NCBI GenBank assembly: GCA_026692725.1 | Contig: JAPMUG010000002.1 | Location: 186,001 to 250,000, forward strand | Source: Ecytonucleospora hepatopenaei | Taxonomy: Eukaryota; Microsporidia; Enterocytozoonidae | Direction: 5' to 3' | DNA: 64,000 nucleotides | Shown: piece after piece, positions 7,749 through 19,842 of the stretch | How the letters are laid out: each line of letters opens with the position of its first letter | Position numbering within the stretch: the stretch's first letter is position 1 | Program-made: the position numbers and the translations under genes | The notes under the pieces: model-generated | The model's database searches: none | Seen by the model: the letters and a program-made list of their open reading frames with translations, nothing else | What the model was told of the DNA's origin: nothing

Positions 7749-8118
7749 AAAACTATTTTATTCGATAGTATTGCTGTAAATATACTAATCTTATTTTTTT
7801 AATTATTGTATTTATACAATACTATTTGTTTTAAAAACAATGTGTTTAAAACTAAACATTGAAAACTTGCTTAAATAAAATTGTAAAACACTCAAATAAG
7901 ACAAAAATACTGAAATTCAGGTTAATAAGATTTAAAGATTTTTAAAAAATTTACCCTTGTATATTTTATAGAAAAAAGCCTTTATAAAGGAAAATGATGT
8001 CAAGTTATCCCTGTCTGATGATGATGAAATAACTACTGATTCCACTTTTATTATCGGAAATGATGAAAAATATCCTCTCGTTTTGATACGTGATAATAAA
8101 TGTTTCTGATCCACTTTT
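7749..8118. other. intergenic gap between convergent genes
   Basis: This 370-bp AT-rich stretch lies between two converging genes. It contains an inverted repeat with 8-bp arms (tattgtat / atacaata) near 7804-7821 that could fold as a hairpin in either 3' untranslated region. The minus-strand frame at 7932-8114 has no family resemblance and no CCC signal, so I treat it as non-coding. Nothing else is seen. Confidence 0.6.
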
Positions 8119-19089: not shown

Positions 19090-19320
19090 TCATTTTTGTT
19101 CCATTTCAGACATTAGCCTGTTATATTCACTTTCTATCTCTTTTCTTCTGGATATGGATTGTTCTAAATTGAGTTGAGAGCGAATTCTCTTTAATTCGTC
19201 AATTTCAGCAGAAAGTTCTTTAAGCTCTCTTTTTAGTTTTTTATATTCGTAAAAGACTCTTTTGTAATTAGACAAGCGTTCTACCTGTTCTTTAAGGTCT
19301 TCAAGAGATATGGTCGTCAT
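19090..19320 (-). CDS. small coiled-coil protein, unknown
   Basis: A 76-residue, fully helical protein (LSNYKRVFYEYKKLKRELKE and LSAEIDELKRIRSQLN) made almost entirely of heptads. The ACCCATT before its ATG supports real expression. It could be a small subunit of a coiled-coil complex (kinetochore, prefoldin-like or spliceosomal). No family can be assigned. Confidence 0.65.
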   Translation of the reverse strand: MTTISLEDLKEQVERLSNYKRVFYEYKKLKRELKELSAEIDELKRIRSQLNLEQSISRRKEIESEYNRLMSEMEQK

Positions 19321-19370: not shown

Positions 19371-19377
19371 AAAAAGG
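19371..19377 (-). terminator. Pol III-type T-run after the RNase P-like RNA
   Basis: Read on the minus strand, the structured RNA is followed at once by CCTTTTT, a standard RNA polymerase III stop. It lies directly after the closing P1 helix, which helps to define the 3' end. Confidence 0.7.
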
Positions 19378-19514
19378 TGACCAAGAGTAAGCCTCATTCA
19401 GTTGGTTGGATCGACAACTAACAGCATTAATCTACTTTTTAGAAAGTTACGCATTTTTTCAAAATATTTCCGAGGACTTTCCTTTAAGTAAAACTTAATG
19501 CTGTTCTTTGGTCA
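19378..19514 (-). ncRNA. RNase P RNA (minimal), MRP RNA as alternative
   Basis: Catalytic RNA of tRNA 5' processing, found by motif and pairing on the minus strand. The ends pair as P1 (TGACCAA with TTGGTCA). P2 is an 11-bp perfect helix (AACAGCATTAA with TTAATGCTGTT). The CR-I motif GGAAAGTCCTCGG is present. CR-V, ACTGAATGAGGCTTA, matches the bacterial ACxGAAxxxGGCUUA. CR-I and CR-V form P4: AAG-(bulged U)-CCTC with GAGGCTT, including the universally bulged uridine. CR-IV is AGATTAATGCTGT, like the AGAUGAAUG type. A tiny P3 and one or two small hairpins replace the whole region between CR-I and CR-IV, and no clear CR-II/III is seen. At about 137 nt it is less than half the usual eukaryotic size (about 300-370 nt). 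RNase MRP RNA shares CR-I and CR-V and is not excluded, but CR-IV favours RNase P. Confidence 0.82.
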
Positions 19515-19842
19515 AGGTTAAAAAGGATAAAATTTTTTAAAAAATACCCTCCATTTTTTAAACCTATTTAATTAGAACAAGACCATTTTATTTATTTAAT
19601 TATAAATATTATACTATACTATAACTATTATATAATATATAACAATATGTTTTGTATAATACAATTGTGATATTAAACATATATACTATTTCAATGATGA
19701 CATATGGACGTAAAGTTTCCTTTTTTACTTTTAACTTTTTTTACTTTTCTTTTTACTTGAAACAATTACGAATACACTAAAGAGTTTTGTGCTTGTCTGT
19801 GTTTTTTCCATGTCTGAGAAATTTATTTATCTTTAAATTTTT
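19515..19842. other. intergenic gap upstream of the RNA gene
   Basis: About 328 bp between the 5' end of the RNase P-like RNA and the 3' end of the pseudo-deacetylase gene. It is highly AT-rich, with long A and T runs just upstream of the RNA that could serve as a TATA-like Pol III promoter element. No open frame or further RNA motif is seen. Confidence 0.5.

Follow-up and report, generated by a model that had tools for sequence, protein, structure and literature searches.

Ecytonucleospora hepatopenaei, a member of the family Enterocytozoonidae in the Microsporidia, infects shrimp. We analyzed a stretch of 64,000 nucleotides of its genome (hereafter the window) in which a short locus on the minus strand appears to encode the RNA of RNase MRP, which helps to make ribosomes. 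Measured from P1 to P1, the candidate gene is 137 nt long (19378..19514, minus strand). It was delimited by a match to the Rfam covariance model of RNase MRP RNA (RF00030), whose alignment spans 19375-19518, and by the elements that we located within it. Read along the minus strand, P1 is followed by P2, a short P3a, CR-I, GARAR, a 5-bp hairpin and CR-IV; next come a P19-like hairpin and CR-V, and the 3' strand of P1 is last. An initial annotation of this DNA had proposed a minus-strand RNA of about 137 nt with P1, an 11-bp P2, CR-I, CR-IV, CR-V and a P4 helix with a bulged U in this order, followed by CCTTTTT. All of these elements were found in place, including the CCTTTTT, a possible Pol III terminator that directly adjoins P1 (19371..19377, minus strand). 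The longest ATG/GTG/TTG reading frame overlapping the gene encodes 30 aa.

The two outer helices were located by sequence. P1 consists of 7 bp between UGACCAA (19508..19514) and UUGGUCA (19378..19384). P2 pairs AACAGCAUUAA (19495..19505) with UUAAUGCUGUU (19420..19430), the latter overlapping CR-IV. The last pairs of P2 compete with P3, so that P2 has 11 bp, or 9 if P3a takes two of them. For the P3a hairpin AAGUUUUACUU (19486..19496; 4 bp, without P3b), CR-I GGAAAGUCC (19474..19482), the P8 region UAUUUUGAAAAAAUG (19452..19466), CR-IV AGAUUAAUG (19425..19433) and CR-V GAAUGAGGCUUA (19388..19399), the Rfam alignment was used together with the sequence location. The 5' strand of P4, AAGUCCUCG (19471-19479), pairs with the 3' strand UGAGGCUU (19389-19396) with one bulged U. 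An eP19-like hairpin, AGUUGUCGAUCCAACCAACU (19400..19419), was placed from the fold and its location. All of these elements lie on the minus strand.

The whole of domain 2 is confined to the 37 nt between the 5' strand of P4 and AGAUUAAUG. The P8 region contains GAAAA (19456-19460, minus strand), which aligns with the GAGAG of RF00030 and corresponds to the GARAR element. Drawn by hand, the stem of P8 is very weak, with about three A-U pairs, and no stem is predicted when the P8 piece is folded alone. The rest of domain 2 is a 5-bp hairpin, ACUUUCUAAAAAGU (19434..19447, minus strand; placed from fold and location), which is P9- or P10-like and could be P9 or what is left of P10. A polysaccharide deacetylase gene and a gene of the Ribosomal_S10 family adjoin the intergenic region that holds the locus. 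Between the candidate gene and the Ribosomal_S10-family gene lies a charged reading frame of 76 aa (19090-19320, minus strand) that looks coiled-coil-like by eye and has a weak Bap31/Bap29 match, below the cut-off.

Assignment to RNase MRP or RNase P

The best Rfam match at the locus is RF00030, with 38.6 bits and E = 2e-9 (901 bases searched, E-value threshold). It covers model positions 1-266 of 266 and is the best of its clan at the locus. Over the 3.09-Mb genome the same match has E = 1.7e-9 and, with all 8 candidates scored, is the only one listed at E <= 10. The score falls short of the gathering score of 50, which is a database threshold, and the alignment deletes long stretches of the model in P3 and domain 2, where the candidate RNA is short. 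Because the match lies below the gathering score, the default Rfam scan of the whole window missed the locus and listed only one tRNA. As a control, we searched 14 bacterial and archaeal genomes with RF00030. Matches at E <= 10 were obtained in 13 of them, above the cut-off in none. The model therefore also responds to related P-type RNAs, and a sub-threshold match alone cannot separate MRP from P.

The genome also contains a canonical RNase P RNA of the nuclear type, found where RF00009 matches over 395 nt on the plus strand of contig C3 (G000:C3:28751-29145, equivalent to L001:1501-1895). The genome-wide search gave it 52.9 bits, the gathering score being 28; the same model matched 4 of the 14 control genomes, above the cut-off in none. 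In its alignment to the P model, CR-I of this RNA falls on GGAAGGUCUGAGAC and CR-V on AAUUCAGACUACUCU, and the distal P3 is short. The window locus is not listed in the genome-wide RF00009 search at E <= 10, for which 15 of the 52 candidates were scored. We rejected an RNase P identity for the locus because a separate RF00009 gene exists on C3 and because MRP is the best clan match at the locus.

These results bear on the initial annotation, which had described an RNase P-like RNA and had staked this reading on there being neither a longer, canonical RNase P RNA nor a separate MRP RNA elsewhere in the genome. The former does exist, on C3; for the latter, the locus itself is the only RF00030 match listed genome-wide. 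The covariance search with P and MRP models that the annotation had proposed bore out its claim of a P/MRP-family RNA with a conserved catalytic core and moved the assignment from P to MRP.

Individual motifs were then compared between the two families. GARAR is described as unique to MRP and as the sole element of MRP domain 2 with high conservation (PMC3737539), and as MRP-specific though absent from the MRP RNAs of some species (PMC1796607). The candidate CR-V is of the MRP kind, AAUGAGGCUUA, as against AAUUCAGACUACUCU in the C3 RNA. P4 reads CCUC/GAGG, which, relative to the published MRP consensus CCCC/GGGG (PMC1796607), amounts to one compensatory change from C-G to U-A, a comparison of one pair with a consensus only. 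P8 and P10 occur in all MRP RNAs characterized by 2007 (PMC1796607). No CR-II/CR-III specificity element was seen in the 37 nt between the 5' strand of P4 and AGAUUAAUG. We attribute this to the different S-domain of MRP RNAs, not to loss from a P RNA; the region between CR-I and CR-IV is much reduced, as first proposed, but not by shrinkage of CR-II/CR-III.

The putative CR-IV is no clean MRP motif. The MRP motif is AnAGUnA, located 0-3 nt before the 3' strand of P2 (PMC1796607). An alternative MRP-type reading of the candidate, AAAGUAG (19432-19438, minus strand), fits it at 6 of 7 positions and lies 1 nt before P2, and the Rfam alignment places AGAUUAA at CR-IV, with the G of the motif replaced. 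The candidate CR-IV also fits the P-type motif AGANNNATG exactly.

This last fit of AGAUUAAUG would favor a different reading, in which the RNA belongs to RNase P, or to P and MRP alike, and has lost its tRNA-binding specificity domain as in archaeal Pyrobaculum. The C-domain elements are common to P and MRP, and RF00030 matches weakly in 13 of the 14 control prokaryotes. Moreover, the P RNAs of Pyrobaculum lack nearly the whole specificity domain (PMC4919922), and T-type P RNAs measure 195-215 nt by their listed coordinates (PMC7191817). Against this reading stand the canonical RNase P RNA on C3, the MRP model as the best clan match at the locus, the presence of GARAR, the MRP-type AAUGAGGCUUA where the C3 RNA has AAUUCAGACUACUCU, and the RF00009 search that does not list the locus among the candidates scored. 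We consider it improbable. The locus is, with high confidence from these sequence comparisons, the RNase MRP RNA gene of E. hepatopenaei, the only one found, with an S-domain that appears cut down to GARAR and one hairpin.

Folding, pattern searches and expression signals

We assessed the folding of the RNA as a naked single strand. It folds better than 200 out of 200 shuffles (z = -4.03). In the unconstrained minimum-energy fold (-36.4 kcal/mol) P1, P2 and P19 form, P4 is absent and CR-I pairs with ACUUUCU. When the P4 strands are kept single, the fold has -25.7 kcal/mol, and P4 would contribute about -7 to -8 kcal/mol, pseudoknot cost aside. Because the naked fold hides CR-I, the core fold, if it forms, must have help from proteins or metal.

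Within the window, the paired CR-I/CR-V pattern (gap 50-80) has a single occurrence, against none in 100 window shuffles. With a gap of 60-90 it has two matches in the genome_contigs collection, both on bacterial contigs. An Rfam scan of 8 kb at each of them gave nothing at E <= 0.01, and thus we take both as chance. Viral contigs, searched at two spacings, gave no match. The collections scanned with these patterns, viral contigs and genome_contigs, yielded no DNA of a microsporidian relative.

Just upstream of the gene is a sequence element, TTTTTAAAAAATTTTATCCTT (19523..19543, minus strand), which also precedes the RNase P RNA gene, a C/D snoRNA-like gene and four genes for ribosomal proteins. 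We searched the genome with the pattern TTTTTAAAAAATTT(N0-2)AYCCTT, which was derived from the MRP and P copies themselves. There are 8 exact sites genome-wide, and the reversed control gives 0. The sites precede the MRP RNA, the RNase P RNA, the C/D snoRNA-like gene, the four ribosomal protein genes and, in one case, no clear gene. Three of the ribosomal proteins were identified by Pfam (S10e, S21e and an L7Ae-family protein) and L3 by eye. In microsporidia, a signal of AAATTT plus CCC is described upstream of ribosomal protein genes (PMC2803860). The T-run after P1 fits termination by Pol III, and the locus is probably transcribed. Belkorchia et al. 2017 are said to have found CCC motifs upstream of microsporidian non-coding RNAs as well.

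Some neighbors of the shared element are themselves candidate non-coding RNAs. An snR38-like C/D snoRNA lies at about 7986-8046 on the plus strand, behind the element at 7939-7958 (RF00213, 35.3 bits against a gathering score of 45, E 0.016). Its 13-nt guide has no exact target in the LSU, but a stretch of 12 nt directly preceding CTGA, AGTTATCCCTGT, is the complement of ACAGGGATAACT in the LSU rDNA (C6:287175-287186). Just downstream of another copy of the element, at L017 (G000:C5:559284, minus strand), AATTGG pairs with CCAATT around an inner stem TCACA..TGTGA, and this hairpin, with ACACA after it, resembles a single-hairpin H/ACA RNA. It had no Rfam match at E <= 0.5 and its folding is modest, being equaled by 15 of 500 mononucleotide shuffles. 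A search for U6 gave no match in this genome and none in the control genomes either, and is thus uninformative.

Two further readings concern whether the locus is functional or an RNA of this family at all. It might be a decayed MRP RNA gene, a pseudogene whose function is lost or carried by a copy that was missed. The low family score and the hairpin that hides CR-I in the naked fold would agree with decay. However, the genome-wide search listed no other MRP match, P1, P2 and P4 are intact (P4 with its compensatory change), neither the upstream element nor the T-run is missing, and CR-I and CR-V persist in AT-rich surroundings; decay is therefore very improbable. That the locus encodes some other structured RNA, or that P/MRP-like motifs came together there by chance, is hardly credible given the genome-wide E = 1.7e-9 for RF00030 and a CR-I/CR-V pair unmatched in 100 window shuffles. 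P2 alone is unremarkable, since this AT-rich window has 12 start positions of perfect 11-bp inverted repeats at 40-120 nt spacing, P2 included, and such repeats would favor a chance origin.

Protein partners, substrate and comparison with known RNAs

To return to the RNase MRP RNA reading, we searched the genome for six Pfam families of P/MRP proteins. One, Pop1, matched above the cut-off and one, p29/Pop4, below it (E 1.3e-4). Rpp20, Rpr2 (Rpr2/Snm1), Rpp30 and Rpp14/Pop5 had no Pfam match in the genome at E <= 1, yet this does not imply their absence because microsporidia are fast-evolving. The Pop4 of Encephalitozoon cuniculi was found only by feature architecture (PMC3919561). Among the 14 control genomes, matches were obtained in 4 for Rpr2/Snm1, 3 for Rpp30, 4 for Rpp14/Pop5 and 1 for Rpp20. 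A 177-aa protein (L023:1486-2019, minus strand) is a candidate P/MRP subunit, with a p29/Pop4 score of 21.5 bits against a cut-off of 27.

A protein search with Pop1 found 6 proteins, its own entry included, with 100% identity to E. hepatopenaei EHP00_649, and R43-R44-R45 near the N-terminus are invariant in all six aligned proteins (own included). Compared with solved structures, Pop1 gave two weak matches, to an unrelated GTPase (E 0.015) and to a POP1 chain (6ahr; E 0.052). The initial annotation had held that proteins have taken over substrate binding. This view finds no backing here: of the six families only Pop1 passes its cut-off, and no added protein was seen.

We also looked at the ribosomal RNA genes. 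The microsporidian SSU rRNA model matches in at least 4 places in the genome, with 1186.6 bits, and is the best of its clan on the rescanned piece; the score, and not the pass, is telling because 9 of the 14 control genomes also pass the cut-off of this model. On contig C6 (G000:C6), an SSU match ends at L010:100 and an LSU match starts at L010:525, leaving about 425 nt between them. This SSU-LSU spacer (L010:101-524) is AT-rich and lies beside one of the at least 4 SSU genes. A short ITS1 has been described in E. cuniculi (PMC1796607).

In yeast MRP, stem P8 is capped by the GARAR element, which forms a GNRA tetraloop plus a bulged purine at the fifth position; this loop is in contact with Pop1, makes up part of the lining of the substrate pocket and can be crosslinked to substrate (PMC7351766, PMC3737539). 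Pop4 and Snm1 hold L5, and Rmp1 lies by P15 and P9 (PMC7351766, PMC3737539). The yeast structure assigns roles in the substrate pocket to P8/GARAR, P5/L5 and J6/7 (PMC7351766), of which only P8/GARAR seems to be left here.

We propose that the E. hepatopenaei RNA would assemble with its proteins into a ribonucleoprotein with the C-domain shared by P and MRP, comprising P1, P2, a short P3 and P4, with CR-I, CR-IV and CR-V around the bulged U, where catalysis would take place. Of the S-domain, the GARAR hairpin (P8) and a single short connector hairpin would be left; P5/L5, P6, P7 and the distal P3 would have been lost and the GARAR piece retained, most likely, judging from yeast, because it meets the single-stranded substrate. 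Given a C-domain, the GARAR loop and a domain 2 of 37 nt, we infer a working MRP in which the catalytic core forms the pocket together with the GARAR loop and Pop1. Its substrate is likely to be the spacer of about 425 nt between the SSU rRNA and the 5.8S-like 5' end of the LSU rRNA, within which the cleavage site would fall. MRP is described as preferring a C at the fourth nucleotide 3' of its cut (PMC3737539).

With the assignment of the locus corrected from P to MRP, an MRP RNA is now placed in the genome of a shrimp parasite where the default Rfam cut-off misses MRP. It offers a compact natural experiment on what RNase MRP RNA can do without. The RNA is possibly a size record, in a ranking that covers Giardia and the archaeal T-type. 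That it is the smallest nuclear RNA of the RNase P/MRP family, a bare catalytic domain plus GARAR loop in which this loop and one connector would be all of the S-domain that pre-rRNA processing needs, is a tentative proposal that we would sooner doubt than accept. A mitochondrial P RNA of about 140 nt occurs in a yeast.

The description of the RNA as far smaller than known eukaryotic ones was too strong, since the Giardia MRP RNA measures 189 nt and microsporidian MRP RNAs had already been described as the shortest known (PMC3228867). The MRP RNAs of the microsporidia E. cuniculi and Nosema/Antonospora locustae are reported as the shortest and, like the candidate, as lacking P3b and P6 (PMC3228867, PMC1796607). 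The passages of the literature drawn on here give no length for a microsporidian MRP RNA, and those of PMC12819141, PMC2607024, PMC3919561, PMC6461891 and PMC10815200 add no microsporidian MRP RNA. In a literature search by the name hepatopenaei, the name was absent among the matches listed.

The MRP RNA of Giardia intestinalis, also among the shortest, has a short P3 without an internal loop (PMC3228867). It measures 189 nt in assemblages A and B by the coordinates of Table 2 of that source, which prints two different ends for the assemblage E entry, and the 137-nt candidate is thus 52 nt shorter (PMC3228867). With S. cerevisiae NME1, as resolved by cryo-EM, the candidate has P1, P2, P4, P19 and the GARAR loop in common; NME1 additionally has P5/L5, P6, P7 and P15, whereas domain 2 of the candidate comprises 37 nt (PMC7351766). 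The archaeal T-type RNase P RNAs of Pyrobaculum, Thermoproteus and Caldivirga likewise consist of a catalytic domain nearly without a specificity domain (PMC4919922). They differ in being RNase P RNAs and in measuring 195-215 nt according to nine coordinate pairs (PMC7191817), whereas the candidate, very probably an MRP RNA, is shorter at 137 nt.
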